In this document: positions 21,738-40,014 of the stretch, piece after piece
Layout: every line of letters begins with the position of its first letter
Numbering within the stretch: position 1 is the first letter of the stretch
Source: Thalassotalea sp. PP2-459
GTDB taxonomy: Bacteria; Pseudomonadota; Gammaproteobacteria; Enterobacterales; Alteromonadaceae
Direction of reading: 5' to 3'
DNA: 64,000 bases
Assembly (NCBI RefSeq): GCF_001913705.1
Contig: NZ_MKQD01000085.1
Location: 62,001 to 126,000, forward strand
Made by a program: the position numbers and the translations under genes
The notes under the pieces: model-generated
The model's input: only the letters and a program-made list of their open reading frames with translations
Databases searched by the model: none
What the model was told of the DNA's origin: nothing

Positions 21738-22649
21738 CTATTTCGAAAAAGAAAAGTGCCGAACAAGTACAAGCATCACGATAAATACACCAGAAGCAAG
21801 TGTTCCTCCAATACAAATTAACGCGCGTTTAGGTGAGGACTTATCTTCTGGGTAGCTTGCAGGATCAACTGTTTTAAATACATACTCTTTTCGTACTTCC
21901 GTTAGTAGTAAAGTTTTCATTTGTTCTTCTATTAACTGATAAAAAGTTTCTTTCATCACTTTACTGTTCGTCTTTTGAGCAACATTCTCTAAATATTTAA
22001 TACTGCTTTTTGCTTCCATTAAATCTTGCTCGCGGATCTCTTCATTAACATCCTCGACTAACCATTCCAACCATTGTTGGGCAATATCTGGTTTGAGAAA
22101 CTCAAGTGAAATATTAACTACTCCGGATTTATTGTCACTTTCAACGGTTAGGATATTTTCAAATGCTAGATAAACATCTTCAGCAGAAGGTATTAGAGGT
22201 TTAGGATAAAAAACTTCTCTAACCCATTTATTTGCTTTTTCATCATACAGCTTATTATTAATTACTAGATTTTTGTCATCGTCTAGTCCATCTGCTGCAA
22301 TCAGCGGTACCAATATATTATGCTTTGTTACAAACTCGTTTAAAAAAGCACGAGATTTCAATAATTCTTTAGCTAATGAAACTTTCTCATCATTCCCTCC
22401 ACCTAAACTAACACCCGCCAAGCCTGCTAACCCCCCTAAATTTCCAGCAAGAGAAGATAGATCTTTTTGGGCATTATTATTAGACATTAATTTCACATGA
22501 GACGTATATTTATTAGGTAAACTTAACGCATATACGACAGAAAACACGGCGAATATACTGACAAAACCTAAAATTAAAAATTTATGTTTAAATAACACAT
22601 AAACAATGCTTGTAAGTGAGATTTCTTCTAATTCATTTTTAGTTTTCAT
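21738..22649 (-). CDS. wzz: Wzz-type polysaccharide chain-length regulator
   Basis: The 303-residue protein has a cytoplasmic N-terminus, a first membrane helix at about 24-45, a long periplasmic part, and a second helix at about 277-298 preceded by a Pro-rich SYPEDKSSPKRA segment. That is the Wzz/PCP architecture. A Gly/Leu-rich stretch GNLGGLAGLAGVSLGGG follows the first helix. There is no fused tyrosine kinase. It would set polymer length together with Wzy. A 221-base gap upstream separates it from the asparagine-synthase-like gene and may hold a promoter. Confidence 0.88.
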   Translation of the reverse strand: MKTKNELEEISLTSIVYVLFKHKFLILGFVSIFAVFSVVYALSLPNKYTSHVKLMSNNNAQKDLSSLAGNLGGLAGLAGVSLGGGNDEKVSLAKELLKSRAFLNEFVTKHNILVPLIAADGLDDDKNLVINNKLYDEKANKWVREVFYPKPLIPSAEDVYLAFENILTVESDNKSGVVNISLEFLKPDIAQQWLEWLVEDVNEEIREQDLMEAKSSIKYLENVAQKTNSKVMKETFYQLIEEQMKTLLLTEVRKEYVFKTVDPASYPEDKSSPKRALICIGGTLASGVFIVMLVLVRHFSFSK

Positions 22650-22870
22650 TTATTCATTTCAACTCTGATGATAAATATTGAAAAACGTGAGGAGTAAATC
22701 AAAGCAGTTTATGATTTTTAAAACTTTACTTATACAAAAGTACAGAGTAAAACAACCACATTCACGCAAATTTAAAATTGTTAGCAGCACTTTATTAACC
22801 AGCGAATTTTAACGTATCGTTACCAAAACAGCTAGATTGTTTTAATTTAAAAGCTTAACTACTCCTATAT

Positions 22871-24481: not shown

Positions 24482-25760
24482 AATTAATTGCCCTATTATT
24501 CGAGTTTTTGTTTTTTTGTTCACATGAAATATAGGCTAATGCGATAATCACTAAGTTATGTATAACGCTAGCTAATACAAACAATTTCAGAGCAAGCCAT
24601 TCATCATTTCCGTAATGGCCACCTAATATTAACATTGCAATACGTACCGGCATTGAAATGATATTTATCAATAACGATTGCTTCTGCTTTTTTAGAACAA
24701 TGAGCAATTTCAAACTGGGCGCATTAATTAAAATAAAATAAGTCCATAGTGATAACCACTGCGCGTAAACACCAGCTTCAAACCATTTTTCACCAAAGAC
24801 CAAAGAGAATAGTGCCGGGCCAAAAAACCAAATAATACCTAACGGCAAAAGAGCAACGACAGACAGGTAAAAAGTTGTGTGAACAAAATATTTTTTCGCT
24901 TGAGCAAACTGTTGTAGGTTAACTTGCTTCGAAAAACGTCCATAACATACATCACCTACAGCTTTGCCTATCAACGTTATAGGTATCGCTAAAATGGTTC
25001 TGCTAAACGTATAAAAACCTGCTGAAACAGGGCCAAATAAAGCTGCTAGTATCACTACAGGGGCACTTTGTGATAGTGCATTAAGTAATGCTTGAGGTGA
25101 CTGAAACAAAGGAAAGTTACGATACCTAGCTAACAGTTGTCTATAGTCGTTATTTGGAAGATTTTCTGTTTCATTTTTTATCGCGTTCTTAACAGGTAAA
25201 CCAAGTAATAGCGCATTAATCAAAGGGTTAACAATAGCAATCACAATTAACGTAATTGCATACGGTATAAAAAAGCCAACGCCTAGTTTTAATAAGTTAA
25301 TTATTAAAGCATGAAGTATGCTAATTTTTGCCCTTAGTTTAAATAAAGATAATTTAATCGACCAATTTTCACTGAGCTGAAGCATCGCACCAAACAGCAC
25401 AACAGCAGGCACCCAATATAAATACATACCATCGCCTTGGGCGTTTAATACGTTAACTAGCCACGGCTTGTTTAACACAATAAATAAGGTAAATATTAAA
25501 CATGCTAACAGAGCAATACAGGTTGAAAGCTTTGACAGCGCTTTAGCTTCATTATTTGACTTAGTAAGCACGACTGCTATGGGTAATGTTAATGCAGCTA
25601 TTGGCATTAATATTGTTGATAACGCGACAAATACCCCCAAGTGACCGAATGCCTCTGGTGTAAAAATGCGAGTGAGTAAAGGTGTGAACGCTAAAGTAAT
25701 AATTTGTGCGCCAGCTGTACCTGTTACTACAGCTAAAATAGCAGAGAGATCTTTACGCAC
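24471..25760 (-). CDS. wzx: Wzx-type oligosaccharide flippase
   Basis: The 429-residue protein has about 12 hydrophobic helices, starting LAVVTGTAGAQIITLAFTPLLTR, the usual opening of the polysaccharide-transporter (MOP/PST) family. FGPVSAGFYTFSRTIL lies near residue 250. It would flip undecaprenyl-linked repeat units across the inner membrane. The start codon is GTG with AAAGGAAAA just upstream. It is the first gene of the minus-strand polysaccharide operon that ends at 15348. Confidence 0.88.
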   Translation of the reverse strand: MRKDLSAILAVVTGTAGAQIITLAFTPLLTRIFTPEAFGHLGVFVALSTILMPIAALTLPIAVVLTKSNNEAKALSKLSTCIALLACLIFTLFIVLNKPWLVNVLNAQGDGMYLYWVPAVVLFGAMLQLSENWSIKLSLFKLRAKISILHALIINLLKLGVGFFIPYAITLIVIAIVNPLINALLLGLPVKNAIKNETENLPNNDYRQLLARYRNFPLFQSPQALLNALSQSAPVVILAALFGPVSAGFYTFSRTILAIPITLIGKAVGDVCYGRFSKQVNLQQFAQAKKYFVHTTFYLSVVALLPLGIIWFFGPALFSLVFGEKWFEAGVYAQWLSLWTYFILINAPSLKLLIVLKKQKQSLLINIISMPVRIAMLILGGHYGNDEWLALKLFVLASVIHNLVIIALAYISCEQKNKNSNNRAINYDS

Positions 25761-26022: not shown

Positions 26023-26053
26023 TAAAAAAAAAACGACCCGAAGGTCGTTTTTT
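26023..26053 (-). terminator. strong UUCG-tetraloop terminator of the S-layer-like gene
   Basis: On the minus strand a stem AAAAAACGACC/GGTCGTTTTTT closes on a TTCG loop with a C-G closing pair, the very stable UUCG tetraloop. A continuous run of about ten T follows. It begins 28 bases after the gene's stop codon. This should separate the abundant surface-protein transcript from the polysaccharide operon. Confidence 0.92.
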
Positions 26054-26080: not shown

Positions 26081-27754
26081 TTAGTTACAAGTGATTGTAC
26101 CGTTACCACCAGCGATAGTGCCAGTACAGCTAGCTTTCTCACCTTCGTATGCATCACTTAATAGTGCCATGCGGCCACCAGAAGCTAGGTTACTGTAACC
26201 AGAGATCTTGATGTCAGCATCAGGAGCTGTTGTAGAGAATGTAACGCTTAATGATGTACCTTCAGTTAGCATTAATGCATCATAAACTTCAGCTTCACTA
26301 ATTTTAGTTAATGATTCTGCTTCAGCTTTACCTACTAAAGTACCGCTGTAAGCAACACCTTCACGCGTAAATGCCGTGATTAACACATCACCTGTTTGAT
26401 CGCCTGAGTTAGCAAGCTCAAAGTTAGTGGTAACGTGGTCATAACCGATTGGCGCGTAAGGGAAGGTAATTTCAGAACCGTTTAAGTCCCAAATAAATGC
26501 ATTTGCACCAGCTGAAGAGCTACCTAATAAATAAAATGCATTAGTATCCGCTTCTGTTGGTGTAATCATCATAGATGCTTTAACAGTACGAGTTGCAAGG
26601 TTAGTGTCACCGTCAACAGTAATCGCAACTGTAGCATCAGAGATACCCACACCTTCAACCATGTTATCAGCATCGAATACGGCTGTATCATTCGTACCAA
26701 CAATATCAGTTTCAGTGTAATCTGCTTGTTCAACACCAGTAAAGTTACCAGTTAATTCCATCGCAAATTCTGCAGTTGTATGATCAATACCTAAATCAAT
26801 TGTGCCGTCAACTGTAATGTCAAATACAAAGTCAGTAGTTACGTCATCACCGATAGCATCAGAGAAGAATAAACGATCTTGTTCAACATCAATGGTATCA
26901 GTTACAGCTGTTGCAGTTAATGCAAACTGGTTTTCTGTTGTTACCAATGTTTTAGCTTCAGCAACAGGTGCGGCTAAAACTGTACCTGTATCATCTTTTG
27001 CTTCAGGTAAACCAACAGTTAAATCGCCTGCACCAATTGTAGCTTTAGTAAACTTAGTAACTACGTTTGCAGCATGGTCACCATCAGTATCATTAAACAC
27101 TAAAACAGCGTCAGCAGCAGTAGCTGTTGTTAATTTAAATAACACCCACTCATAATCGCCATTAGCATCTTCACCGAAATCTACTAAGTCAGCAACAGCC
27201 GCACCTACATCACCAATAACAATTTCATTTGCAGCTGCTACAGCAGCTTTCGCGTCGCCTGCAACACCAGGAGCGATTGTTAGAGCATTGATTGCCGCAA
27301 TAGCAGCTGTTGCGTTAGTTGCGGTTGTAGTTGCATTAATAACTTCAATTGCTGCAGCTTTAGCGGCTGCTAATTCCACATCTAATTCGGCTTGCGTGTT
27401 ACCAGTAGCATTAGCTACTGCAGCAACTGCATTGTCAATATCTGTTTGAACTGCTGCATCTAAAGGGTCTGCAACTGTATTGTCAATTACTTGTAATTTT
27501 AAACCAGTATCCGATGCAATTGCACCACCAGCAAAATCAAACTTCAATGTATTGTTAACACCTAGTGCTATACCAGCACGGTACTGAATACCAATAGTCC
27601 CTGCTTCTAAATCTCCTGAAAGAGCTGAACCAGTGTAAGCACCTAAGTATTCGTTACCTACTTTATAAGCGGTACCTGATACAGAGATACTACCAGCAGT
27701 TGCCGAAGCAGCCGTTGCAGCAAGTGTTGCCGCTAACAATGTTTTTTTGAACAT
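26081..27754 (-). CDS. secreted acidic S-layer-like surface protein
   Basis: The 557-residue product starts with a clear Sec signal peptide, MFKKTLLAATLAATAASATAG. The mature part is rich in Ala, Thr, Val, Asp and Gly, poor in Lys/Arg and strongly acidic. Residues about 95-185 form an Ala-rich, probably helical insert, and the rest looks beta-rich. The only two cysteines are in the last 17 residues (SCTG and TCN), positioned to form a small C-terminal loop. From memory it resembles the S-layer protein Slr4 described in marine Pseudoalteromonas; no alignment was made. A good Shine-Dalgarno (AAGGA, 6-base spacing) and a strong terminator suggest high expression. The T2SS genes directly upstream could serve its export. 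A porin-like or biofilm matrix protein is the alternative. Confidence 0.72.
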   Translation of the reverse strand: MFKKTLLAATLAATAASATAGSISVSGTAYKVGNEYLGAYTGSALSGDLEAGTIGIQYRAGIALGVNNTLKFDFAGGAIASDTGLKLQVIDNTVADPLDAAVQTDIDNAVAAVANATGNTQAELDVELAAAKAAAIEVINATTTATNATAAIAAINALTIAPGVAGDAKAAVAAANEIVIGDVGAAVADLVDFGEDANGDYEWVLFKLTTATAADAVLVFNDTDGDHAANVVTKFTKATIGAGDLTVGLPEAKDDTGTVLAAPVAEAKTLVTTENQFALTATAVTDTIDVEQDRLFFSDAIGDDVTTDFVFDITVDGTIDLGIDHTTAEFAMELTGNFTGVEQADYTETDIVGTNDTAVFDADNMVEGVGISDATVAITVDGDTNLATRTVKASMMITPTEADTNAFYLLGSSSAGANAFIWDLNGSEITFPYAPIGYDHVTTNFELANSGDQTGDVLITAFTREGVAYSGTLVGKAEAESLTKISEAEVYDALMLTEGTSLSVTFSTTAPDADIKISGYSNLASGGRMALLSDAYEGEKASCTGTIAGGNGTITCN

Positions 27755-27787
27755 TTTAAATCCTTATTTTTCATGAAAATGAATTTT

Positions 27788-27827
27788 ATTATAACTTTAG
27801 TTATTATTTAGCTAAGTAATAACTAAA
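27788..27827 (-). promoter_or_regulatory. -10 box and 11-bp dyad upstream of the S-layer-like gene
   Basis: On the minus strand TATAAT lies at 27793-27788, which would place the transcript start near 27781 and give a leader of about 27 bases. A perfect 11-bp inverted repeat, TTTAGTTATTA / TAATAACTAAA (27796-27806 and 27817-27827, 10-base loop), covers the -35 and spacer region. A 12-bp palindrome TTTTCATGAAAA at 27768-27779 lies at the predicted start. This looks like an operator arrangement, or leader hairpins if transcription begins further upstream. Confidence 0.55.
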
Positions 27828-28111
27828 TAAAAGTCATTATTTAACGTTAAAAGACTTTAACATGTTAGTGGAAGTACCGCTAAAATGCCAAATCTTGAAA
27901 CAATTTATCTCAACTAAACCAAAGGTGTCAACACCTAATTTCGTAATTAATTCAGTGTCTTTTATTTAACCAATGCCAATTTGATTATTAATTCGTCGAA
28001 TTATCAATAATTGCCGTGCGACAAAATAAAAGGCTATGATAACACATTAGACACCCAACTTAGTAACCTATTGTTTTTTAAGAACAATATAAAAACAAAC
28101 TCATACCAAAA

Positions 28112-28136
28112 TTAAAAGGCATGTAAATTAACATGC
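28112..28136 (-). terminator. probable terminator of the gspL-M-C-D genes
   Basis: On the minus strand GCATGT/ACATGC forms a 6-bp stem (131-136 and 119-124 of 28xxx) with a 6-base loop, followed by CTTTTAATTTT. It lies 60 bases after the gspD stop. The stem is short, so the call is moderate. Confidence 0.55.
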
Positions 28137-28195
28137 AAACACCTATAAACTCGCGAAAATGCTGGCATTGCTCAGCTCTGTAAGCAAATAATAAA

Positions 28196-30256
28196 TTAAA
28201 AAGTTAAATATTCTAAATTTTGCTTAAATGAGTCAGTAATTTCTTGCCATTGATCAGTACGGTCTATTACTTTTGGCGTGATCAACATAATTAACTCGGT
28301 ACGGTTAGTGTTTTCACCGTTTGATTTAAATAAGTGCCCAACCAACGGGATATCCCCTAATAAAGGTATTTTTTTATCGCCTTGGTTGGTGTTTTCACTA
28401 ATTAAGCCACCTAAAATGATAGTTTGACCGCTTTGTGCAACAACTTCTGTTTTTAAACCTCGCTCGAAAATATTCGGGTTACCACTTGCACCTGAAGAGT
28501 CAGGCACTTCATTAGAAATAGTTTGGCTAATTTCCATGATCACAATACCACGGGCATTAATTGAAGGGGTTACAGTTACATCAACCCCTGTTTTGCGATA
28601 TTCAGAACTGGTAGTTTGTCTGTCGCCACTGATAGGGTCTTCGGTGGTTTCACCAACTACTGAAATATCTGAACCCACATTAATATTAGCCGAGACACCA
28701 TCACGCACTAATAAACTGGGGTTTGATAGCACTTTGATTAGATCATTCGTTTCAATAAAATTCGCTTTTATACTGCCATCTGCGCCGTTTAGCGCTAAAC
28801 TAAAACCGCCAATCCCCGTTACACCAAAGGCATCTTTTGTTCCCATGCTAAGCTCACCTTGGGTAAATGCCCACTCAACACCATGTTTAAACTCATCACT
28901 TAAATTTACTTCCGCAATGGTAATATCTAGCATTACTTGACGTGGTAATACATCTAGTTTTTTAATGAGCGGTAACAGTGCTTGGTATTTATTACCCGAG
29001 GTATAAAAAATAATCGCGTTTGAACGTTCATCAACCACTAAGGTCATGTCATCTGAACTTACGCCGGTTAAACGCGTATTCGAGGGTGCGTTACCCGTAG
29101 AGCTTTTACTAGCAGTATTGCTTTTTGAGTTCGCTCGAGCTGTTCCACCTAATAAAGCAGATAAACTTTCACCTAAATCTGCGGCACGGGCATATTGTGG
29201 ATGATACATAAAGTATTGTTTAGTGACACTTTGCAAAGGCTTATCAATTAACTTCGCCCAATAACGCACACGATCGAGTAACGATTTATCAGCAGCAAAT
29301 ACAGCAATAGAACCAATTTGTGCAATGGGAACCATGACTAAGTTTTTACTGCCAGCATTATTTGTAGCGATAGGAATGCCTTCATTCTCTAACAACGTGG
29401 TAATTTGCGTAGTAAACTCTTCACTGGTGATGTAAGTGAGGTTTATTAAACCAATATTTTTACCACGGTTTGACGGTGCATCAAGTAAATGAATAAACTC
29501 AAGCGATCTGAGAATTTCTTCGCGTTTACCTTGCAAGAACAAGGCACTTTGATCCGCATCTGTTGATATTTGCACACCTACTAGTTGTCTTAACGCTTTC
29601 TCAATACTTATTTTAACACCATATTTTAACGGAATAATTTGTAGAATATCTTGCCCTGTTTGTGGCACATCTTCTAACTCTCTACCAACTGCCGTGACTA
29701 CATTTTTAGCACGTTTATTAAGTTTAGGTTTATTAATAAAGTACAAGCCATCATTAAAGTTAATGCTAACCTCATGTTCCATTAACAATTCACTTGTTAA
29801 CTGCATTAAACGACGAGGGCTAATTTTTTCTTGTATGTTTAGGGTTATTTTTTCTTTTGAAGGCTCTACGCTTTTATCAATTATATAATTAATGCTGAGT
29901 AATTCACCAAGTGCGTAATGCAAAAACTCATTTAATGGCATTTCATTGACCGAAAGGCTAAGTGATGGCTCTGGTGAAAACGACGCAGACAGCTTTTCAG
30001 CTTTGCGTAGGTTAACTTGCTGACGTGGTAAGGGTTCTAGGTTTTTAATCTGAGCTAAGTCGGTATGCAGAAGATCTTGCTCTTCTGGAATAGTATCATC
30101 AGTTGTTACCACAACTATATCTTCTTCACCATTCAAGTAAGACTGAGGGACTTTAAACCCCGAGCTTTTCTCTGGTTGAGTCTCTTGTGTTGAGCTACAA
30201 CCAAACATAGCAAATACACAAAATAATATTGTAAGGTGTTTTTTTGTTTTGTTCAT
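28196..30256 (-). CDS. gspD: type II secretion secretin GspD, lipoprotein type
   Basis: GspD forms the outer-membrane channel of the T2SS. The 686-residue protein has an N0 domain at about 95-180, repeated N-domains (IIPLKYG, INLTYITSEEF) to about 420, and a C-terminal secretin domain (about 430-670) with VDVTVTPSINARGIVIMEI and the signature SGQTIILGGLI. The signal peptide ends in AMFGC with Cys20 followed by SS, which looks like a lipobox. Classical GspD is not a lipoprotein, but liposecretins such as HxcQ of Pseudomonas pilot themselves. It also ends soon after the secretin domain, with no long pilotin-binding S-domain. It is the last gene of the cluster. Confidence 0.9.
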   Translation of the reverse strand: MNKTKKHLTILFCVFAMFGCSSTQETQPEKSSGFKVPQSYLNGEEDIVVVTTDDTIPEEQDLLHTDLAQIKNLEPLPRQQVNLRKAEKLSASFSPEPSLSLSVNEMPLNEFLHYALGELLSINYIIDKSVEPSKEKITLNIQEKISPRRLMQLTSELLMEHEVSINFNDGLYFINKPKLNKRAKNVVTAVGRELEDVPQTGQDILQIIPLKYGVKISIEKALRQLVGVQISTDADQSALFLQGKREEILRSLEFIHLLDAPSNRGKNIGLINLTYITSEEFTTQITTLLENEGIPIATNNAGSKNLVMVPIAQIGSIAVFAADKSLLDRVRYWAKLIDKPLQSVTKQYFMYHPQYARAADLGESLSALLGGTARANSKSNTASKSSTGNAPSNTRLTGVSSDDMTLVVDERSNAIIFYTSGNKYQALLPLIKKLDVLPRQVMLDITIAEVNLSDEFKHGVEWAFTQGELSMGTKDAFGVTGIGGFSLALNGADGSIKANFIETNDLIKVLSNPSLLVRDGVSANINVGSDISVVGETTEDPISGDRQTTSSEYRKTGVDVTVTPSINARGIVIMEISQTISNEVPDSSGASGNPNIFERGLKTEVVAQSGQTIILGGLISENTNQGDKKIPLLGDIPLVGHLFKSNGENTNRTELIMLITPKVIDRTDQWQEITDSFKQNLEYLTF

Positions 30257-30283
30257 AGTTATTTTACTTAATGTAACCTATTG

Positions 30284-30847
30284 CTAGCTGCTTGTATTAT
30301 ACAAGTGAAGATTTATCACATTGCTGTAACCAGTTAATATCAGTTTATTAGGCAATATGTTTGTTACGGCATAACCGTTTAATGTATCTGTTAAGGTGAC
30401 TCTGCGAAGCTCACGTTTATTTGTTGTTAAGTTTTCTTGGGCAACAACAGCGAAACGACCATCTTGCTCAAACGTTCCAACTAACATTAATCGCATATTT
30501 TTAGCATATAGCTCTTTTAAATCACCTTTTTGGGCTAACATTTCTGCTTCAGATAAACCTTGCTGTTTTTCTACTTTAGTTTTTGCCGTTGATTCGTATC
30601 GCTTTAGCTTTTCAGAAATTTGTTTAAATTCTACTTCATTCAATGCAAGAAGTCCGGTTGATGATAGTTGCTCTTGAGACCATTCATTACTAACTTGCGC
30701 AGTACCATCATTAAAACGAGTAACGAAATCAAAAAATATTAAGAATAAGATGATTCCCCAAACAACAACTAACTCTCGTTTAGTAAATTTTTTTAACCCG
30801 TGTACTTCGTTCTCGGTCGTTGTCACTTTTTTAAAGTTCAACATCAT
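30284..30847 (-). CDS. gspC: GspC-like inner-membrane T2SS protein without PDZ domain
   Basis: The 187-residue protein has one membrane helix at about 27-45 and a periplasmic C-terminal part. That part reads LMLVGTFEQDGRFAVVA, then NGYAVTNILPNKLILTGYSN, the pattern of the GspC homology region (HR) that binds the N0 domain of GspD. A PDZ or coiled-coil domain, usual in GspC of about 270-300 residues, is absent. It sits just before gspD and overlaps gspM by four bases. Sequence divergence leaves some doubt; PilP is the alternative. Confidence 0.7.
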   Translation of the reverse strand: MMLNFKKVTTTENEVHGLKKFTKRELVVVWGIILFLIFFDFVTRFNDGTAQVSNEWSQEQLSSTGLLALNEVEFKQISEKLKRYESTAKTKVEKQQGLSEAEMLAQKGDLKELYAKNMRLMLVGTFEQDGRFAVVAQENLTTNKRELRRVTLTDTLNGYAVTNILPNKLILTGYSNVINLHLYNTSS

Positions 30848-31401
30848 TTAGCTTCCAGGTTCGTCGAAAGGTTATAAGCTGAAAAAACAAGACTACCTGA
30901 AGCCTCGCCAAGAGAGTTTTCTTTCATTCTTCGGATATATATCGTCCATTCTACAATGTTAAAAAAGGTCGCTTGATCTGATAGATCCATATGCAATAGT
31001 GCTATATCGTTTGTATCACCTTCAAAAAAAATTTTAGCGCGTAATTCTTTGATATCACCTTCAAGTTCATTGGGCCACGTGAAGTTTTTTATTTTTACCT
31101 TGTGTTGACTAAACTTTTTTTCTACTTGTTGCTGCAAGGATAATTTCATCTCATTTGTAGAACTAAAACTGTGATAAAGCGTTTTTGTTCGCTCATTTAT
31201 TTTTTCTACACCTGTTAGCGAAACTGCTAGTGTTTCCTTACGTGCTATTACATTTTCAGCTTTATTTAACCTCATTGCCTTTGCATTTATGTCGTCAATA
31301 TTTTCTTGTTGCCAATCAAAAACAGGTACAACTATAAATCGAATTGCCGCGAGCAAAGCAACAACTAATAACAAGTTTTTACGATTTCTTAGTGTGCTCA
31401 T
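30844..31401 (-). CDS. gspM: GspM-like T2SS protein
   Basis: The 185-residue protein has one N-terminal membrane helix (about 9-27), a helical coiled-coil stretch (NAKAMRLNKAENVIARKET) and a ferredoxin-like C-terminal part. This is the GspM/PilO layout. It would form the inner-membrane platform with the GspL-like protein encoded next to it. The ATG at 31401 shares one base with the gspL stop (TGATG) and is preferred to an upstream TTG. The call rests on layout and position. Confidence 0.72.
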   Translation of the reverse strand: MSTLRNRKNLLLVVALLAAIRFIVVPVFDWQQENIDDINAKAMRLNKAENVIARKETLAVSLTGVEKINERTKTLYHSFSSTNEMKLSLQQQVEKKFSQHKVKIKNFTWPNELEGDIKELRAKIFFEGDTNDIALLHMDLSDQATFFNIVEWTIYIRRMKENSLGEASGSLVFSAYNLSTNLEAK

Positions 31402-32651
31402 CAATTACTCCTTACTTCAGGGAGTGCTTGTTTAGATGCAGGTTCTACACGACTACTTTTTACTAATTCATTAGTGTTGAGCGTAAAGCTAATACTGAAT
31501 TCTTCACGTCCCCTACTTTTACGTACAGGCTTTGAAAAGCTTGGTTGCATTAAATAAGGATTTTTAGTTAATTTTGACAATATATCGGTAGCTCTTTGAC
31601 CTTCATTAGCCCACCCTTGGATAGTCACTGTTTCATTTTTATATAAAATCGCTTTTAATTGAGCACCTGAAGCAATAACGTCTAAAGCTATATGCCAAAT
31701 ATTCCAATGAGGATTTTGATTTTGTAAAGGTGCTTGTAACTGCTTATGCTGACTTACTGCTGTTTGGTACGCTTTTTGAAGTGACAAGGATTCATTCACC
31801 TGCTCGGCTTTGTTTGTTAAAGCGTAATCCAAGTGTGCATTTCGCAAGACAAGCCAACCACTTGTAAGTAATAAATAACCGCTGAAGAGGGTAACTGCAA
31901 TTATGCCTGCTTCTTTCCACGGGTAATCTTGCCAGTTGATTTTCTCTGACTTTACCACAAACCCTTGAAGCGACGTAATACCTTGCCTTAATAATCCTTC
32001 ATATAATAAAGCAACAAAATCGGATTGCTCTTCTGTGCTTAAACACTGTTCTTGTTCAGTTACTAGTGGAGCACCTGAAGCCAATGCAAACAACTCTACT
32101 GAAGGTGTATTGGCAGACTGAATACCAGATACGATACCTTGGCCGGTTTTAGAGATAAACAAAGTATTTGATAAGGTTTTTATGCAAGCAATCGATACTT
32201 TATCATCAAGTGCATTAGCTAACAAAAACGATTCCGGAATAATTAACCAAGGTTTTTCCTTTATTGAATCAAATATTTTCGGTTCTACAACCCAAAGCGT
32301 AACTCTATGGCTATGTTCATTTATTCGTTCTATAAATTTTAGTGTTGTACCTGAAAAAGGTGCATTGTCGTCGTCATATTCTAATGCTTTTAATAATTCG
32401 CGTTTATTGGCAATCGGATAGACCTTAGAAACTTCGAAATAATGCTCGCGACCTAAAATTAACCAAGTAGCTTTAGCGATCTTTTCTTTGGGTTGTTTAA
32501 TTAAAGAAACACCCTCTTTTTTGTCACTCTTTATCGCGTAAAATTCATTCGATAAATATCCACCACGATCCGCTAACTTTTCTTTGATGAATGCTAGTAT
32601 ACGTGATTTTTGCTGAGTATTTTTTGATGCTTGATTATTAGCTTGTTGCAA
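31401..32651 (-). CDS. gspL: GspL-like T2SS protein
   Basis: The 416-residue protein has a large cytoplasmic N-terminal part (about 1-245, actin-like in GspL), one membrane helix near 247-268, and a periplasmic part with a ferredoxin-like segment (LKAILYKNETVTIQGWANEG). GspL recruits the GspE ATPase to the membrane. The start is TTG at 32651; no ATG lies near it. A 215-base gap with a probable promoter separates it from gspK, so L-M-C-D may be a second transcript. Confidence 0.75.
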   Translation of the reverse strand: MQQANNQASKNTQQKSRILAFIKEKLADRGGYLSNEFYAIKSDKKEGVSLIKQPKEKIAKATWLILGREHYFEVSKVYPIANKRELLKALEYDDDNAPFSGTTLKFIERINEHSHRVTLWVVEPKIFDSIKEKPWLIIPESFLLANALDDKVSIACIKTLSNTLFISKTGQGIVSGIQSANTPSVELFALASGAPLVTEQEQCLSTEEQSDFVALLYEGLLRQGITSLQGFVVKSEKINWQDYPWKEAGIIAVTLFSGYLLLTSGWLVLRNAHLDYALTNKAEQVNESLSLQKAYQTAVSQHKQLQAPLQNQNPHWNIWHIALDVIASGAQLKAILYKNETVTIQGWANEGQRATDILSKLTKNPYLMQPSFSKPVRKSRGREEFSISFTLNTNELVKSSRVEPASKQALPEVRSN

Positions 32652-32689
32652 TTTACTTTCTTAATGATCGCCGAATTAACGGGGGTAAA

Positions 32690-32695
32690 ATTATA
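32690..32695 (-). promoter_or_regulatory. candidate promoter of gspL-M-C-D
   Basis: On the minus strand TATAAT is preceded at 16-base spacing by TTCCAA as a weak -35. It lies about 39 bases upstream of the gspL start, in the only sizeable gap inside the T2SS gene string. Confidence 0.4.
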
Positions 32696-32866
32696 CACGA
32701 CAATAGTTATATTGGAAGTAGCTATTACCTTAACGAATGGGAGTATCCTACCTCAGTACTAACACACCATACAATGTATTCTGATCTTTTATGTCCAAAA
32801 TAGCCATTATTTTAGTAAAAGAGTATTTCAATCATTGCCTTTATGATAAAAACAAATCATCTAGAT

Positions 32867-33781
32867 TTAATAACGAGCAAAAATCATTAAAGGTTCGTTG
32901 GCAAATGGTTCGAATTTAAACTCTATTGTTTCTTGTAACACCACATCATTCACACTTGCTTGTATACTCAAGGTTAAGTGGTTAGCCGGAAAAAAAGATA
33001 AATATGTCTCATCATATTGATTATTCAATATCCCATTAATTTCCTCCTTAGTCAAAACTCGGTTTTGTCGTTCAGCAATTATTTGTTCAGCTACATCTAA
33101 TGGAAATAGGAGCTTTAATAAATGGTTTGGGGCATTTTGAATATTAAGTCCCGCTAATGGATACAATGTACTCATTGACTTTATAGACTCTAAAGCCACT
33201 TGATGACTTTCAAAAAACAAATCAATCTCTTGTGACAATTGTATCGGAAAATTTCGATATTCAAAGCCATTTTCAAGCATTGTTGGCTCTTGTTCACCAA
33301 CAATCCAAGCATCTGTATCTTTGTCTTGCCAATCACCAAAACGCCCTTGAAATTCTTTTATCTGCTGGTCTTGTAGGCCTAAATTCTCTAATGCTACGCG
33401 CCAGAATGGCCATTTTATGAACTGTAATGGTAATAACCCTGCATTATCTTGAATACGTACTTTTATGACAATGCTTTCATCGTTTATTAATACAAAAGGT
33501 TGCCCATACACATTCCAAGGTTCACTGTTTGGATAAAGCTGTTCAAGGTGCTCATCGTTTTGTTGTGTCAATAACAAGTACAACATTTTACTTTGTGTGC
33601 TTTTTATCAAGTTGCTTGCTTGAATTCGGTTTTCAAGGGCTGTAGCGGTAGCAATTTGCTCTCTTGCTGTATACGTAAAACTCAACGCTAATAAACTGAT
33701 AATCATGCTAATTAACAAGACTTGTACTAATGCAATACCCGACTGTCTTGTATAGGATGTAGAGTTAATCTTGATTGACAT
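32867..33781 (-). CDS. gspK: T2SS minor pseudopilin GspK
   Basis: The 304-residue protein starts with a prepilin leader, cleaved after the Gly in RQSGIALVQVLLISMI. It lacks the usual Glu at position 5 of the mature protein (Gln here), as is typical of GspK, the pseudopilus tip. It is the largest pseudopilin, with a SAM-like helical insert (NAPNHLLKLLFPLDVAEQI). With GspI and GspJ it starts pseudopilus assembly. It overlaps gspJ by 17 bases. Confidence 0.88.
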   Translation of the reverse strand: MSIKINSTSYTRQSGIALVQVLLISMIISLLALSFTYTAREQIATATALENRIQASNLIKSTQSKMLYLLLTQQNDEHLEQLYPNSEPWNVYGQPFVLINDESIVIKVRIQDNAGLLPLQFIKWPFWRVALENLGLQDQQIKEFQGRFGDWQDKDTDAWIVGEQEPTMLENGFEYRNFPIQLSQEIDLFFESHQVALESIKSMSTLYPLAGLNIQNAPNHLLKLLFPLDVAEQIIAERQNRVLTKEEINGILNNQYDETYLSFFPANHLTLSIQASVNDVVLQETIEFKFEPFANEPLMIFARY

Positions 33782-34454
33782 AGTTTGATAATACTGCTGG
33801 GATTGGCCGATTCAAACGGGATTGTATCGAATACTGTTTACCTTCAACGGTAAAAGTTACACTTACCTGTTCTGGAAAAACAAGTTTTTCTAAACTATTA
33901 TAATCGCTAAGCCACTCCTTTTGCGGAGGTTGCATACTTGTTAGGTCAGGTGTCCAATTTTTATTTTCTAAAGAGGACCAACCGAAATAGAGAAACTCTG
34001 CATTTTTTACCCTATCAAATAAAACAACTGAATGCTCAAACTCTAATTGTTGTGTTACCTGTACTAACATTTGTTGATTCATTGGTGACTCTTGATAGAT
34101 CAGGCGAAAGGTAAAATCATCATTTTGTTCGAATTTCAATCTAACCACTGCCGCGAAATCTGGCTTAAACATCGATCTTAATGTTACTGCAACAAAACCA
34201 TTTCTATTACCTTCAAAATAATATTTAGCACTTTGTTTATTATCGGTGACAACATAGCCCGTAATACTCTGCAAGGACTCCTGTACAAGTAGTAAATTTT
34301 TTGTAGTAGCTAAGGTTTGATTAAAATGCCCAAGACGACCATTCCATCTGTCACTAAATAACGAATATGCATTAGTTGCAATGAGCATTACCATGGAAAG
34401 TAACGTCATTGATACTAGCATCTCAATTAAGGTGAAACCTTTACTCCCCTTCAC
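33765..34454 (-). CDS. gspJ: T2SS minor pseudopilin GspJ
   Basis: The product (229 residues) has the class III prepilin signature KGFTLIEMLVSMTLLSM, with cleavage before Phe and Glu at mature position 5, and a beta-rich C-terminal part. Length fits GspJ (about 200-230). The GTG at 34454 makes a GTGA overlap with the gspI stop and is preferred to a TTG one codon earlier. Prepilin peptidase is not encoded in this window. Confidence 0.87.
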   Translation of the reverse strand: MKGSKGFTLIEMLVSMTLLSMVMLIATNAYSLFSDRWNGRLGHFNQTLATTKNLLLVQESLQSITGYVVTDNKQSAKYYFEGNRNGFVAVTLRSMFKPDFAAVVRLKFEQNDDFTFRLIYQESPMNQQMLVQVTQQLEFEHSVVLFDRVKNAEFLYFGWSSLENKNWTPDLTSMQPPQKEWLSDYNSLEKLVFPEQVSVTFTVEGKQYSIQSRLNRPIPAVLSNYVNQD

Positions 34455-34885
34455 CAACTTACCTCATTGAATTGATATACCCTGCTCGCTTTATCAATAG
34501 ACAGTTGAAGCTCTACATTCCATAATACAAACTGATTAATAGACTTTTCTAGCTCCCCGCTTGCCAAACTCACTCGCTCAGGTGGCGCACTAACGAAAGC
34601 TGGCTTAGCTACCCAAGAAAACGTTACACGCCCCCATTCACCTTGTTCTTCCATTATTTCTTGTTGACCTGACGTTTGAATTTTAGCTTTGATACTCTCA
34701 CTTATTGTTTCAACAGCTGCTGAAAACAATAAGGTTCGTTCTGCTTTACCACTTGATAATATCGCACCTCTATATACTAAGGTAATAGAGGCAATGACTA
34801 AAAATAAAATAAATGAAGCAACTAAGACCTCAATTAACGTAAAACCGCGCGATTTATTGTAGCGTTTACCGTTGTTTAATCTCAT
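34451..34885 (-). CDS. gspI: T2SS minor pseudopilin GspI
   Basis: The 144-residue protein has the leader and N-terminal helix SRGFTLIEVLVASFILF of a pseudopilin with Glu5. Its size and position between GspH and GspJ identify it as GspI, which nucleates the tip complex with GspJ and GspK. It abuts the gspH stop directly (TAGATG). Confidence 0.85.
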   Translation of the reverse strand: MRLNNGKRYNKSRGFTLIEVLVASFILFLVIASITLVYRGAILSSGKAERTLLFSAAVETISESIKAKIQTSGQQEIMEEQGEWGRVTFSWVAKPAFVSAPPERVSLASGELEKSINQFVLWNVELQLSIDKASRVYQFNEVSW

Positions 34886-35359
34886 CTATTGCTCCAACAA
34901 AGCAATTAAATCTAACTGTCTAGTTTTATTGCCCTGCCGAAACTGAAGTACTGTAATATCTACCATACCATTTTTGTTAAAAAACAAGACAGAATCATCA
35001 AAAGATAAAAATTCAAAGTGTTGCTCTAACAGTTGAAAGCTTGTCGCTTGGTTTTGTTCGTTGAAAATATCATTTGTTGCCACTTTGGAAATGATAACTT
35101 GATGCTTGTTAAGTTCAACTTTAATCGTTGCACCATTTGAGAATGCTTTAATACTGGCTTTTCTTAATAAGTTGCAAAATGATAAATATTCACTTTGAGC
35201 ACTAGCTTTATCCACAGTATTAATCGCTAATGGTGCAACAATTGACATCATTGTCATCATAATAGAGATAACAACTAATAACTCTATTAATGTTACTCCT
35301 CTAACAGAGCGATACTTACGCTTACATAAACAAACATGTTTTTGCGAACGTAAAAACAT
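34886..35359 (-). CDS. gspH: T2SS minor pseudopilin GspH
   Basis: The 157-residue protein has an unusually long, basic leader with three Cys/Arg-rich stretches before the cleavage site RG-VTLIELLVVISIM. Glu5 is present. The C-terminal domain is beta-rich. The order F-H-I-J-K supports GspH. The role is a minor pseudopilus subunit linking the tip to GspG. Confidence 0.82.
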   Translation of the reverse strand: MFLRSQKHVCLCKRKYRSVRGVTLIELLVVISIMMTMMSIVAPLAINTVDKASAQSEYLSFCNLLRKASIKAFSNGATIKVELNKHQVIISKVATNDIFNEQNQATSFQLLEQHFEFLSFDDSVLFFNKNGMVDITVLQFRQGNKTRQLDLIALLEQ

Positions 35360-35360
35360 T

Positions 35361-36566
35361 TTAAAATCCTAGTTCGTTGACCGAGATAATACTTAATAGC
35401 ATGGTCACAACAACACTACCAACTATACCGCCCATTGTAAGGATTAATAAAGGCTCTAAGGTAGATGTCATTTTATCAGTCCAACTTTCAAACTCTGCCC
35501 TTGAACGAGAGGCTATTTCATTAAATACGGGTGACAATTTTCCACTTTCTTCACCTACTTCTAGTAAAGACAGAAAAAATTCAGGGTAAATAGGGCTTCG
35601 GCCAAGAGAAGCAGTTAACCCCTCCCCTTTCTTAATTTGTTCTTTGGCAGCTATTAGGCCCTGTCGAATAAAACGGTTTTTTACACTTCCCGCTGATAGT
35701 TCTAACGCTTTATCAATTGAAATGCCCGCATCAATCATCATAGATAATGCCGCATTAAACCTTATACGTTCTACAACGAGCAACGCTCCTTTAATTAAAG
35801 GCGTTTTTATTAATACTTCATCAAGCCTTCGCTTAGTATTTGGATTTTTAAACGCAGCCATTAGCCCTATAATAGCAGCTGCAATCGCGAGAAAAAGAAA
35901 CCATTGATACTGCTGCATCCAAGCACTTACATCTAATAAAACTTTTGTGTAAATAGGTAACTCTGGCAACCCATCAAACAACCCGCTCATTTGAGGTACA
36001 ATGTAATTAAATATAAATAAAATACATAATATACAAACACTTAAAATAACCAAGGGATAGGTAAGGGATTGTATAATCTTTCGCTTAAGATTTGCTTTAA
36101 ACTTTAGATCTATGGCGAGCTTTTCAAAAACATTAGATAAATCACCACTAGCTTCTCCTAACCGCACTAAATTAATGTAAAGGAGATCAAAAACATCAGG
36201 ATGTTCTGCCATGGCATCTGACAGCATATTTCCACGTTTCACTGCTGTATATAACTCTTTAAGTAGTTTTTCAGAAGCACCTTTCGCTTTATTACGTTGC
36301 AAAATATATAAGCTTTTGTCTATTTTTACGCCATTTTTTAATAATATAGACAGCTCAGATGTAATAAATTCTAACTCGTCTAGGCTAACCGTTTTACTTT
36401 CAAATAAACTAATTGAAGACTTATTTTCACCCTGTTCTTTTAAAGAAATGATAATAAGTTTTTGTTCAACTAATTCTTTTTTAGCAAGCTCAAATGTATT
36501 TGCATCAAGAATACCTTCAACTTTAGCACCATGAACATCGTACGCTTGATAAAGAAATTGAGCCAT
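35361..36566 (-). CDS. gspF: T2SS inner-membrane platform protein GspF
   Basis: GspF is the polytopic platform protein that turns GspE ATPase movement into pseudopilus growth. The product (401 residues) has two T2SSF repeats, a first domain at about 65-190 with GEASGDLSNVFEKLA, a second with GEESGKLSPVFNEIA, and three membrane helices. Length matches GspF/PilC. The ATG at 36566 shares a base with the gspE stop (TAATG); the frame opens earlier at a TTG (36575). Confidence 0.93.
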   Translation of the reverse strand: MAQFLYQAYDVHGAKVEGILDANTFELAKKELVEQKLIIISLKEQGENKSSISLFESKTVSLDELEFITSELSILLKNGVKIDKSLYILQRNKAKGASEKLLKELYTAVKRGNMLSDAMAEHPDVFDLLYINLVRLGEASGDLSNVFEKLAIDLKFKANLKRKIIQSLTYPLVILSVCILCILFIFNYIVPQMSGLFDGLPELPIYTKVLLDVSAWMQQYQWFLFLAIAAAIIGLMAAFKNPNTKRRLDEVLIKTPLIKGALLVVERIRFNAALSMMIDAGISIDKALELSAGSVKNRFIRQGLIAAKEQIKKGEGLTASLGRSPIYPEFFLSLLEVGEESGKLSPVFNEIASRSRAEFESWTDKMTSTLEPLLILTMGGIVGSVVVTMLLSIISVNELGF

Positions 36567-38224
36567 TAACCACAAACCCTAATAATTTCATCCACTGTAG
36601 TAAGACCTTTCATTGCTTTTACTAAACCGTCTTCAAGTAAAGTACGTCCGCCGATACTTTTATTATGTGCTTTCGCTTCAGCGATGAACCTTTCATTTTT
36701 AGGTAAACTTGTAATTTCTTGGTCTGAGCGTAAATATTCAATAACAGCCATTCGGCCCTTGTAGCCGCTATTATTACAGTGCTCACAACCTTGAGGTTGA
36801 CATAAAGTGATTTCTGTCAGATTGTTTTTATTAGCGAGTTCTTCCAATTGATATTTGTTAATTAACTCCTTCTGTTCAGGGTGCGGAATAGTGCAGTGTT
36901 GACAAACTTTACGTGCCAATCTTTGCGCGATAATAGATACTAACGCCGCATTCAACAAAAATTCTTCTACACCTAAATCAAGTAAACGCGTGTATGCACT
37001 GGGCGCATCATTTGTATGAACTGTACTAAAAACTAAATGACCGGTAAGTGCAGACTGCATTGCTATTCGTGCAGTTTCCTTATCTCGAATTTCACCTATC
37101 ATTATAATGTCAGGATCTTGCCTAACAATACTGCGTAAACCAGCGCTAAAATCAAAACCAATATCAGGCTTAACTTGTACTTGGTTAACTCCTTCTAATT
37201 GATATTCTACTGGATCTTCTAAGGTAATTATTTTCACATCATCATCGTTAAGTTCATTCAAGAACGTATACAAAGTCGTGGTTTTACCACTACCTGTTGG
37301 CCCCGTAAGTAAAATAACACCTGCAGTATGTTTTAAGTCGTCTTTTATTTTTGTTTCGATATCCTCGGAGAGCCCTAAAACATCCATTTCATATTGAACT
37401 GCGTCTTTTCTTAAAAAACGCATAACCATACTTTCACCATCATTTAAAGGTAATGAAGATACTCGAATATCTAACGCTATATTTGAAATCTTCATTTCAA
37501 TTTTGCCATCTTGTGGTCTGCGCTTTTCGGCAATATCCATATCAGCTAATATCTTAAGTCGTGAAATGACAGCAAGTTGAAGCCGTAATGGTAAGGTTTC
37601 TATCTCTTGTAAAACCCCATCAACGCGAAATCTGACTCTATATCTACCTCTTTGCGGCTCAAGATGCATATCTGAAGCACCTTGTTTAAGTGCTCTTGCA
37701 ATAAGTGAGTTTAATAAGTTAACCGTTGGGGCTTCACTAGCTAGTTCTCTTAACTTATCTTCTTCAACATCTGATAATAATTGCGTATCATTTCCAGCAT
37801 TCACTTGCTGTTCAATATGATTAATTTGAAATTTCTGAAAAACATCGTCAGTTGTAATAACGCTTGAGTATTTAACATGTAAACTCTGTAAATACTGAAT
37901 AACTTCCCAATTTAAAGGAGATACGGTAACAAAAGTATAATGCTTGCCGTTTTGTTTATATGGATACCAACCTCGGTCTGTTAAAAACTTTACATTTAAG
38001 TCGGCTCCAATAGGAGGTTCTAATGTTTCAAACTCATCTAAGGTTAAAATAGGTAACTGCAATAGACGACTATAAAAAGAGGGTAGGTTATCTTCAGAAA
38101 AGCTTCCCATATTAATAAGTAAACGCTCTAAAGCGCCACCAAACTTGGATTGATATGCTTTTGCTTTTTCAATATCATCTAAGGCAACATCAAATTCCTG
38201 AAGGGTTTGCTCCATATTCAGCAT
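36566..38224 (-). CDS. gspE: T2SS ATPase GspE
   Basis: GspE is the cytoplasmic hexameric ATPase of the T2SS. The 552-residue protein has an N-terminal GspE/MshEN-like domain (about 1-150), Walker A GPTGSGKT at 308-315, the Walker B region IIMIGEIRD at 373-381, and a C-terminal zinc module with two CxxC pairs (CQHC and CEHC). It overlaps gspG by one base at its start and gspF by one at its end. PilB-like and MshE-like ATPases share this layout; the neighbours decide for GspE. Confidence 0.92.
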   Translation of the reverse strand: MLNMEQTLQEFDVALDDIEKAKAYQSKFGGALERLLINMGSFSEDNLPSFYSRLLQLPILTLDEFETLEPPIGADLNVKFLTDRGWYPYKQNGKHYTFVTVSPLNWEVIQYLQSLHVKYSSVITTDDVFQKFQINHIEQQVNAGNDTQLLSDVEEDKLRELASEAPTVNLLNSLIARALKQGASDMHLEPQRGRYRVRFRVDGVLQEIETLPLRLQLAVISRLKILADMDIAEKRRPQDGKIEMKISNIALDIRVSSLPLNDGESMVMRFLRKDAVQYEMDVLGLSEDIETKIKDDLKHTAGVILLTGPTGSGKTTTLYTFLNELNDDDVKIITLEDPVEYQLEGVNQVQVKPDIGFDFSAGLRSIVRQDPDIIMIGEIRDKETARIAMQSALTGHLVFSTVHTNDAPSAYTRLLDLGVEEFLLNAALVSIIAQRLARKVCQHCTIPHPEQKELINKYQLEELANKNNLTEITLCQPQGCEHCNNSGYKGRMAVIEYLRSDQEITSLPKNERFIAEAKAHNKSIGGRTLLEDGLVKAMKGLTTVDEIIRVCG

Positions 38225-38619
38225 TATTGATGCACCAAATCTTCATCTTCATCTTTACCGCCTAAAACACCGTCCTTCCCATAACTCATTAAGACGTAGT
38301 CTTCCCCATTAGGGCCAGGTGACTTGTATTGATAAGCGTTACCCCATGGGTCACTAGGTACATCTTTAGGTATGTATGGACCATCCCAATTAGGCTTTTC
38401 TGATACTCGTAATTCGGATAATGCAGTCGGATAGTCGCCAATATCTAATCGATAAGTATCTAAAGAAGTTTGTAACATTTGCATTTGGGCTAATGCTGTT
38501 TTTTGTTTAGAAGAACCAACTTTCGAAAACATTTTTGGTGCTACTAAAGACATAAGTAACCCTAAAATAACGATAACAATAAGTAGTTCAATTAAAGTAA
38601 ATCCTCGATTTTTGTACAT
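38224..38619 (-). CDS. gspG: T2SS major pseudopilin GspG
   Basis: The 131-residue protein has the prepilin signature NRGFTLIELLIVIVILGLL, Glu5, and the GspG C-terminal features WDGPYIPKDVPSDPWGNAY and SYGKDGVLGGKDEDEDL, including the calcium-binding loop. It is the main pseudopilus subunit. It is the first gene of the cluster, unlike the canonical C-D-E-F-G order. The 145-base gap upstream probably holds the promoter. Confidence 0.95.
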   Translation of the reverse strand: MYKNRGFTLIELLIVIVILGLLMSLVAPKMFSKVGSSKQKTALAQMQMLQTSLDTYRLDIGDYPTALSELRVSEKPNWDGPYIPKDVPSDPWGNAYQYKSPGPNGEDYVLMSYGKDGVLGGKDEDEDLVHQ

Positions 38620-38764: not shown

Positions 38765-39826
38765 CTATCTATTTTTATTAATATGCTTTATGAATCGCCA
38801 AGCATGCTGCATTGCATAAGAATAAATACAAAATAACAATAAAAAAGCACTTAACATGAGTGGTTCAGAAATGCTGAAAATTTCGCCCATAATACCAATA
38901 CTAGAGCAAAAGACTGCAAGTGTACTTATCACCCATAATGCTTGACGAGATGTTAAACCTAATCTCATACATATGTGATGTAAGTGTCCATTATCAGCTT
39001 GAAAAGGAGAAACGCCTTTACGCATTCTTCGTATCATAATTGCAAACATATCCATCAAAGGAATTGCAATCACCCACAATGCTGTTACAGGTCTAAATGA
39101 TGCTTCGCCGTATACTGTATTTTGCGTTTTCAATGTTAACAACCAAATAACCGTTAAGCCCATAAACATACTACCTGCATCGCCCATAAAAATCTTTTTA
39201 CCACGTGGATTTCGAGTACTCACATTATAAAAAAGATAAGGAATTATCGCGACAACAAGAATTAACGGTAATAGTACATCGGCAGAATTATCATTTAATG
39301 TGGTTAATAAAGTTATTGAAAGTATTGAAATAATACTCATTGAGCCTGCAAGACCATCGATACCGTCAATCATATTAAAGGCATTAATAGCAGCAACACA
39401 GGCAAGCATGGTAAATATCATGCCGTATGAACCTACATTTACGTTGCCAAACGAAAAAATATTGCCAAAGTCGTATATATAAATACCTGCACCAAAAACC
39501 ATTAATGAGGCTACAATACCTTGAAAGATCATACGAGGTGCTACACTTAGATCATAGATATCATCCATCGTGCCAATAAATACGAGTAACGCTGAGGAAA
39601 TAAAATATAAGTTAATAATTTGATTTTGTTCAACAAAAAACGTTGAAGCTATTAACACCCCAGTATAAATTGAAATACCGCCAATAAGGGGGATAGCGCC
39701 GTCATGCTTTTTACGCTCATTTGGTAGATCAACTAAACCAATATGTGGCGCTAAGGGAAGTAACACTTTAATTGTAGAAATAGAAACACAGAAAGCGACA
39801 AGTAAAGCACTTAAAATAAGAAGCAT
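38765..39826 (-). CDS. WecA-like undecaprenyl-phosphate glycosyl-1-phosphate transferase
   Basis: The 353-residue protein has about 11 membrane helices and the polyprenol-phosphate N-acetylhexosamine-1-phosphate transferase motifs: GTMDDIYDL (Asp pair), NAFNMIDGIDGLAG, FMGDAGSMFMG, and HLHHI in the last cytoplasmic loop. It would start repeat-unit synthesis by loading a HexNAc-1-phosphate onto undecaprenyl phosphate. It is separated from the other polysaccharide genes by the T2SS cluster, but it is the only initiating transferase seen in the window. Confidence 0.9.
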   Translation of the reverse strand: MLLILSALLVAFCVSISTIKVLLPLAPHIGLVDLPNERKKHDGAIPLIGGISIYTGVLIASTFFVEQNQIINLYFISSALLVFIGTMDDIYDLSVAPRMIFQGIVASLMVFGAGIYIYDFGNIFSFGNVNVGSYGMIFTMLACVAAINAFNMIDGIDGLAGSMSIISILSITLLTTLNDNSADVLLPLILVVAIIPYLFYNVSTRNPRGKKIFMGDAGSMFMGLTVIWLLTLKTQNTVYGEASFRPVTALWVIAIPLMDMFAIMIRRMRKGVSPFQADNGHLHHICMRLGLTSRQALWVISTLAVFCSSIGIMGEIFSISEPLMLSAFLLLFCIYSYAMQHAWRFIKHINKNR

Positions 39827-39967
39827 TCAATAAACCTTGGTATTTAAAAAAATACACGAGCCAGTAAGCATAAAAAATTTCGCTAATTATAGTAGGCTAG
39901 CTAGTTAGAATCTAGGGTAAACAGCAAATATTTTACAAACAACCACGTCAATTCATCAAATGTGAAT

Positions 39968-40001
39968 ACGGCGAGTTATAACTGAAGCATTATCTCGCCG
40001 T
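39968..40001 (-). other. 8-bp GC-rich hairpin after the SLBB exporter gene
   Basis: Arms ACGGCGAG (39968-39975) and CTCGCCGT (39994-40001) are perfect inverse repeats, with an inner 4-bp stem in the 18-base loop. It lies 13 bases after the exporter stop. There is no T-run on the minus strand, so it may be a Rho-dependent end or a stabilising 3' hairpin rather than an intrinsic terminator. Confidence 0.5.
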
Positions 40002-40014
40002 TTAACACTATTGT

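Follow-up and report, generated by a model that had tools for sequence, protein, structure and literature searches.

We found, in a 64,000-nucleotide (nt) stretch of the Thalassotalea sp. PP2-459 contig NZ_MKQD01000085.1 (positions 62,001 to 126,000; hereafter the window), a type II secretion system (T2SS) gene cluster followed on the same strand by slr4, a gene of the Slr4 family of surface-layer (S-layer) proteins. We consider it likely that this is an Slr4-type S-layer locus in which the adjacent T2SS, of sps-like type, is the exporter, and in which slr4 has its own promoter, structured leader and terminator. The pairing of T2SS and slr4 has already been published, and the locus is of a known kind. 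Added here are a measured exclusiveness of the pairing, signs that slr4 is probably transcribed separately, and a structured leader associated with slr4.

In Pseudoalteromonas tunicata, slr4 was described immediately downstream of a T2SS cluster, an arrangement common to related genomes, and a dedicated system was proposed (Ali et al., 2020; PMC7821379). The same article threaded Slr4 on RsaA, and its reading suggests a T2SS-slr4 operon. The link is repeated in the AnnoView paper (PMC11094555), and the NpdA paper treats the occurrence of S-layer genes next to secretion genes as a pattern (PMC10765051). The two genes at the junction in the window are:

26081..27754, minus strand: slr4, encoding an Slr4-family S-layer protein of 557 amino acids (aa) (PF19526, 106.6 bits, cut-off 25)
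28196..30256, minus strand: gspD, secretin with a lipoprotein-type N-terminus (PF00263, 149 bits), which defines the Slr4-linked GspD class

The PF19526 match (E 2.1e-30) aligns residues 172-528 of the window protein to profile positions 14-370 and places it in the Slr4 family. The original prediction, made from the window sequence, had called this product S-layer-like and had suggested that the locus may be a homologous but diverged counterpart of the Slr4 locus, which the profile score bears out. Read by eye, the N-terminus appears to be of Sec type.

We surveyed the gspD neighborhood, as the original prediction had proposed. Named genomes were scanned with a GspD alignment, the loci not being selected for Slr4, and the best 80 of 91 relatives were kept. 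Of the 76 loci with a downstream gene (four more stop at a contig end), 71 have slr4 as the next gene on the same strand, and the gspD-slr4 gap in these GspD-selected loci has a median of 308 nt. Among 295 genomes of the order, scores of the window GspD fall in two groups, with 13 genomes at 503 bits or more and the next at 282. All 13 genomes of this GspD class carry PF19526, which is found in 14 of the 295; in the one further genome, G230, a more distant GspD is encoded immediately upstream of the Slr4-like gene. Because some species occur both in the order set and among the named loci, the two sets of counts are not independent. The coupling of this T2SS class with slr4 is near-exclusive, and the arrangement is not due to chance. 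For the predicted dedicated S-layer T2SS, an idea already in print (PMC7821379), co-occurrence and adjacency are thereby established; its export part is argued from position.

Putative transcription signals were found on both sides of slr4:

28119..28136, minus strand: terminator-like hairpin after gspD (consensus match)
27902..27931, minus strand: promoter-like site of slr4, TTGACA-18-TAAATT (consensus match, supported by conservation across loci)
26028..26053, minus strand: strong terminator-like hairpin after slr4, 11 bp with a loop of 4 and a T run (consensus match)

In 39 of 68 loci an exact TTGACA is located 80-170 nt ahead of the leader dyad described below, against 32 of 680 control windows of equal length taken in and after slr4; read backwards, it is present in 2 of the 68 leaders. 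The promoter argument rests on this cross-locus conservation, since in the window alone promoter-like matches are at chance level (8 against 8.2 expected). In the region as a whole, 6 terminator-like sites were counted over the two strands, against 1.6 expected. slr4 appears to have a strong promoter of its own, and the T2SS genes and slr4, neighbors as they are, probably do not form one transcript.

The slr4 leader has a common layout in relatives: a covarying stem-loop, then the dyad UUUCAUGAAA, then a Shine-Dalgarno-like site, the last present in 68 of 68 leaders under a loose definition. These 68 are 67 leaders, not counting the window, plus that of locus L142, whose open reading frame (ORF) start is late. 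The corresponding features of the window are:

27797..27826, minus strand: stem-loop in the slr4 leader with a 10-bp stem, ending 18 nt before the dyad (from folding)
27769..27778, minus strand: dyad element TTTCATGAAA of the slr4 leader (from sequence, conserved in relatives)
27761..27765, minus strand: Shine-Dalgarno-like AAGGA (from sequence)

The 80 loci (1.64 Mb) contain TTTCATGAAA 72 times, against 5.2 expected, and 68 of these occurrences are just before slr4. An exact copy accompanies 67 of the 71 T2SS-adjacent slr4 genes, in at least 22 named genera; L116 and L131 have the dyad TTTCTAGAAA instead, and L126 and L134 have diverged. In Aliagarivorans the leader reads TTTCATGGAA, which as RNA gives a G-U wobble. 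Extra tandem slr4 copies are mostly without the exact dyad, which usually accompanies the first copy only, though the third copy in L100 has it too. Ten of the 12 other GspD-class genomes of the order have the exact dyad, these being partly of the same species as the named loci. A looser pattern, TTTCATGAAA-N1-6-GGAG, gave 53 matches in 48 of the 295 genomes, eight at slr4 and the rest background-like; the stricter form TTTCATGAAA(TT or CTN)GGAG, defined after the slr4 leaders were seen, occurs nine times among the 295 genomes, the same eight being at slr4. Alignment A4 took only leaders with the exact 10-mer, so that the invariance of its ten dyad columns is by construction; the flanks and the stem-loop are free of this selection. 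The pair flanking the dyad is GC in 35, AU in 29 and UA in 2 of 66 distinct leaders, is never unpaired, and changed at least five times on the GspD tree.

Judged by covariation, the leader behaves as a structured RNA in relatives. The 45 nt before the dyad have a mean folding z-score of -2.46 in the 58 of 68 leaders that were left after similar ones were dropped, and two control segments are flat (-0.14 at 145-95 nt before the dyad, +0.13 at 14-59 nt after). Twelve of the 68 leaders were chosen as alignable, and the stem-loop in alignment A5 was drawn by hand from these same sequences. In these 12 relatives, both partners have changed in nine of the 11 stem pairs, and 93.5% of stem-loop cells pair; for both helices together 95.3% are paired, against 31-47% when the partners are slid. 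Compensatory changes are shown for the stem-loop of relatives and not for that of the window, which is further upstream than in most relatives and has no covariation support; the window dyad is intact. The whole window leader (27755-27900, 146 nt) has a z-score of -3.66, with none of 200 shuffles as good. A covariance model, R1, was built from the 12 rows and applied to 59 sources, all outside the training set. It gave 61 matches at E <= 1, of which 60 are at an slr4 leader and one is elsewhere, in L034. Of the 60, 36 are on the coding strand and 24 on the other, a split that a dyad would be expected to give.

This leader is apparently undescribed, as far as the following searches reach; no wider search was made. 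Rfam 15 gave no match at gathering score in the slr4 leaders of six loci, and window positions 27700-28250 gave none on the coding strand up to E 1 and two sub-gathering matches on the other strand. Among the papers listed in a literature search for the leader 10-mer, all looked unrelated by title, and the words promoter, untranslated, leader and transcript do not occur in the main text of Ali et al. (2020; PMC7821379).

The workings of the locus may be pictured as follows. Slr4 would cross the inner membrane by Sec, as its signal peptide, read by eye, suggests; a T2SS of the sps-like S-layer layout would carry it to the surface through its own GspD; and it would assemble outside on polysaccharide made by the surrounding gene cluster. 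slr4 would be made in bulk from its own promoter, and its message may be protected, or translated more readily, owing to the stem-loop and the dyad close to the ribosome-binding site. Stable structured leaders are a known trait of S-layer messages elsewhere. The most likely job of the leader is to provide a stable or efficiently translated message for a very abundant protein. More tentatively, and with rather more doubt than belief, we propose that the slr4 message contains an undescribed cis-acting RNA element, in which a stem-loop conserved in shape precedes an invariant UUUCAUGAAA hairpin located at the ribosome-binding site; Slr4 synthesis would be tuned to export or assembly capacity by a trans-acting factor that recognizes the hairpin, and the T2SS and the coat gene would be coordinated post-transcriptionally, not by a shared operon. 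With the published suggestion now a measured, near-exclusive coupling, "one T2SS, one substrate" becomes directly testable in a marine laboratory strain. The conserved leader offers a handle on the making and exporting of a dominant surface protein, and calls into question the assumption of one T2SS-slr4 operon.

A number of observations weigh against a T2SS-exported, separately transcribed Slr4 with a structured leader, and are taken here together with the alternatives that they favor. Export by the adjacent T2SS is deduced from position, and the same genome has a second T2SS, of canonical layout, on contig C16 (L033; its C, L, M and N were read from order), which might export Slr4. Five loci do not have slr4 next: L115 and L160, both from Aliagarivorans, and L162, L127 and L166. 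In L160, and in L111 (the other contig of the L115 genome, at a contig end), slr4 is found at the opposite end of the cluster in divergent orientation. In L162, where Slr4 was not detected, its place is taken by a different acidic protein of 639 aa with an export-type N-terminus, and L127 and L166 have neither slr4 nor such a protein there. The neighboring T2SS might then be a general exporter that merely stands beside slr4, with Slr4 leaving by the canonical T2SS or by another route, as the presence of that second system and the frequent lack of an S-layer-like neighbor in distant relatives would allow. Such a bystander would hardly be followed by slr4 in 71 of 76 close-class loci, or be matched by PF19526 in 13 of 13 class genomes with one further genome in addition, and even in L162 the slot is filled by a protein of similar character; we think this explanation improbable. 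The single operon first proposed in print, with slr4 as its last gene, draws on the shared strand, the median gap of 308 nt and the published reading (PMC7821379). A terminator-like site between gspD and slr4, moreover, is present in just 16 of 67 loci, which speaks for the operon and against separate transcription. Set against these are the conserved TTGACA ahead of slr4, the terminator-like hairpin after gspD in the window, and the needed amounts of Slr4 and of T2SS parts, which presumably differ greatly, and we would be surprised if the operon were the whole account.

For the leader, the window itself is a poor example. It has no significant stem-loop directly before the dyad (a fraction of 0.43 of 30 shuffles were as good), its 62-nt element folds no better than shuffles (z-score 0.04), the minimum free energy fold of the leader pairs UUCAU with AUGAA instead of giving the CAUG loop, and R1 gives no hit in the window or elsewhere in that genome. 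Among relatives, two further folding controls are uneven (-1.40 at 95-45 nt before the dyad, hinting at more structure upstream, and -0.95 at 40-85 nt after), and 28 of the 66 leaders lack pairing at the second position out from the dyad. The pattern TTTCATGAAA-N1-9-GGA occurs once in the 4.08-Mb genome, at slr4, and since it occurs six times when read backwards, the single true match is no enrichment by itself. The dyad could be a DNA operator, TTTCATGAAA being bound by a dimeric regulator and the nearby stem-loop being a separate feature. The 10-mer is a perfect dyad, and L116 and L131 keep the symmetry with a changed center (TTTCTAGAAA), as would suit an operator. Its short spacing to a conserved RNA stem-loop on one side and to a Shine-Dalgarno-like site on the other, the compensated changes of the flanking pair, and the Aliagarivorans TTTCATGGAA with its G-U wobble argue instead for action as RNA. 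We regard the operator as unlikely, and prefer a leader that acts in the message.

The remaining T2SS genes of the window are:

38224..38619, minus strand: gspG, major pseudopilin, first gene of the cluster (PF08334, 101 bits; TIGR01710, 134.9 bits, above its cut-off of 88.85)
36566..38224, minus strand: gspE, assembly ATPase (TIGR02533, 514 bits, below the equivalog cut-off of 630)
35361..36575, minus strand: gspF, inner membrane platform (TIGR02120, 309 bits, below the cut-off of 424)
34886..35359, minus strand: gspH, minor pseudopilin (PF07963 N-methylation motif; named by position)
34451..34885, minus strand: gspI, minor pseudopilin (PF07963 N-methylation motif; named by position)
33765..34457, minus strand: gspJ, minor pseudopilin (PF07963 N-methylation motif; named by position)
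32867..33781, minus strand: gspK (NF037980, 50.5 bits, below the cut-off of 130)
31401..32651, minus strand: gspL, with a PilN-like C-terminal part (PF05137, 32.6 bits, cut-off 22.8)
30844..31404, minus strand: gspM, XpsM-like (NF040576, 36.5 bits, below the cut-off of 60)
30284..30847, minus strand: gspC-like inner membrane protein (by position and conservation in related loci)

Together with gspD these give the eleven genes that had been predicted, running on the minus strand as G-E-F-H-I-J-K, a 215-nt gap, and L-M-C-D, with slr4 441 nt past gspD. A secretin, an ATPase, a platform protein, major and minor pseudopilins, L, M and C are present, as in a T2SS. The best family matches of GspD, GspE and GspF are T2SS models, all under the equivalog cut-offs, and GspC had no meaningful match in the family model searches. 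The names of H, I, J and C come largely from place: the first three show the N-methylation motif, and for C no family matched. The system is diverged: GspG passes its curated cut-off, D, E, F, K and M fall below theirs, and L matches PilN. Neither a prepilin peptidase (GspO) gene nor gspN is among the ORFs listed at the locus, as had been noticed. Their absence means little, because the single Peptidase_A24 gene of the genome, on contig C37, supplies a prepilin peptidase that can be shared. The gene order, which the original prediction had given correctly, had also been called non-canonical; it is no oddity, being close to that of the Aeromonas sps system.

Xps-type T2SS clusters have the order E-F-G-H-I-J-K-L-M-N-D. 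Most window genes follow that order, and window GspM matches the XpsM model below cut-off; the window differs in having gspG at the front and an S-layer gene attached. In Aeromonas hydrophila AH-1, spsE-F-G-H-I-J-K-L-M-orf2-D and vapA lie inside the O-antigen cluster (PMC4413209). This resembles the window in a nearly equal T2SS order followed by the S-layer gene and in the surface polysaccharide setting, but the S-layer protein is VapA and gspG is third there and first here, the likeness being one of gene layout. Gene layout is also what is compared for Paracidovorax citrulli, where an S-layer gene adjoins the 12-gene gsp cluster gsp1 and the protein, NpdA, differs from Slr4 by name (PMC10765051). 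P. tunicata D2 agrees with the window in an Slr4-family gene directly after a T2SS cluster (G, E, F, K, D and others), with a Sec signal peptide and conservation in relatives (PMC7821379). The window Slr4 differs by an extra helical insert and a two-cysteine tail, a difference judged against the proteins of alignment A2.

The insert is an Ala-rich helical segment at about residues 94-175, not seen in the other Slr4 proteins of A2 and probably common to the protein of L087 (565 aa, 75% identical); the two cysteines are in the C-terminal tail. At the sequence level slr4 is far more variable than gspD, the closest relative apart: the window Slr4 is 19-25% identical to the 11 others of A2, while GspD identities in alignment A1 are 38-48%. 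The closest GspD among the named genomes is that of Thalassotalea sp. 1_MG-2023 (93%), whose Slr4 is 75% identical. An AlphaFold2 model of the window Slr4 (predicted local distance difference test score 74.9, predicted template modelling score 0.59) may be read, as weak evidence at moderate confidence, as tandem beta-sandwich-like domains and not the RsaA-like fold suggested in print. No convincing relative emerged when solved structures were searched by sequence with the Slr4 alignment (best E 1.3e-4, in the N-terminal part). We claim no fold homology for Slr4, because VIA-align Z-scores were middling (best 8.9, root mean square deviation 11.8) and Foldseek template modelling scores low.

In Rheinheimera texasensis slr4 is in two ORFs (L030 3864-5410 / L128 12074-13620), by a broken gene or a sequence error, and it was left out of alignments A2 and A6, the latter having 52 rows from a larger set. 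Ferrimonas aestuarii and several Pseudidiomarina have three or more Slr4-family genes near the T2SS, which could be for a multi-component or switchable coat:

L100, 12808-17280: multiple Slr4-family genes
L123, 12280-19678: multiple Slr4-family genes
L124, 12101-16693: multiple Slr4-family genes
L135, 12227-21830: multiple Slr4-family genes
L140, 12294-19389: multiple Slr4-family genes

Two metagenome-assembled genomes with the alphaproteobacterial labels Robiginitomaculum (L141) and Planktomarina (L089) carry the Slr4-linked T2SS class, by transfer or misbinning.

More distant GspD proteins, matching that of the window at 193-282 bits, occur in 20 genomes of the order (G013 to G095). In several of these a different acidic protein with an export-type N-terminus (459-594 aa; DUF7507 type or SpaA-repeat type) adjoins gspD or gspK. 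The slot after gspD in L074, L078, L081 and L082 holds an acidic protein with DUF7507 domains (L074 just under cut-off) or SpaA repeats, and the slot proteins of L079, L084 and L085 are similar by eye. A different acidic export-type protein follows gspK in the distant loci L069 (18297), L070 (1065) and L075 (18036), and also in L072 and L076; the palindrome AACTATAGTT is ahead of the ribosome-binding site in three of these five gspK-linked leaders. A class-wide set had GspD matches at E <= 1e-90 in 38 of 274 genomes. Dedication of the whole T2SS lineage to surface proteins was considered and is not claimed, because many of the 20 loci fetched from that set have no such acidic exported neighbor.

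Polysaccharide genes surround the window locus on both sides:

38765..42774, minus strand, upstream side: WecA-type glycosyl-1-phosphate transferase and SLBB/Wza-type export protein (Pfam)
17608..25760, minus strand, downstream side: Wzx-type flippase, Asn-synthase-like protein, Wzz, nitroreductase-like protein, polysaccharide pyruvyl transferase and two glycosyltransferases (Pfam)

Among related loci holding both E and D, WecA- or SLBB-like genes are present in 41 of 75. A match to a polysaccharide flippase family is given by the gene that follows slr4 in 14 of 69 loci.

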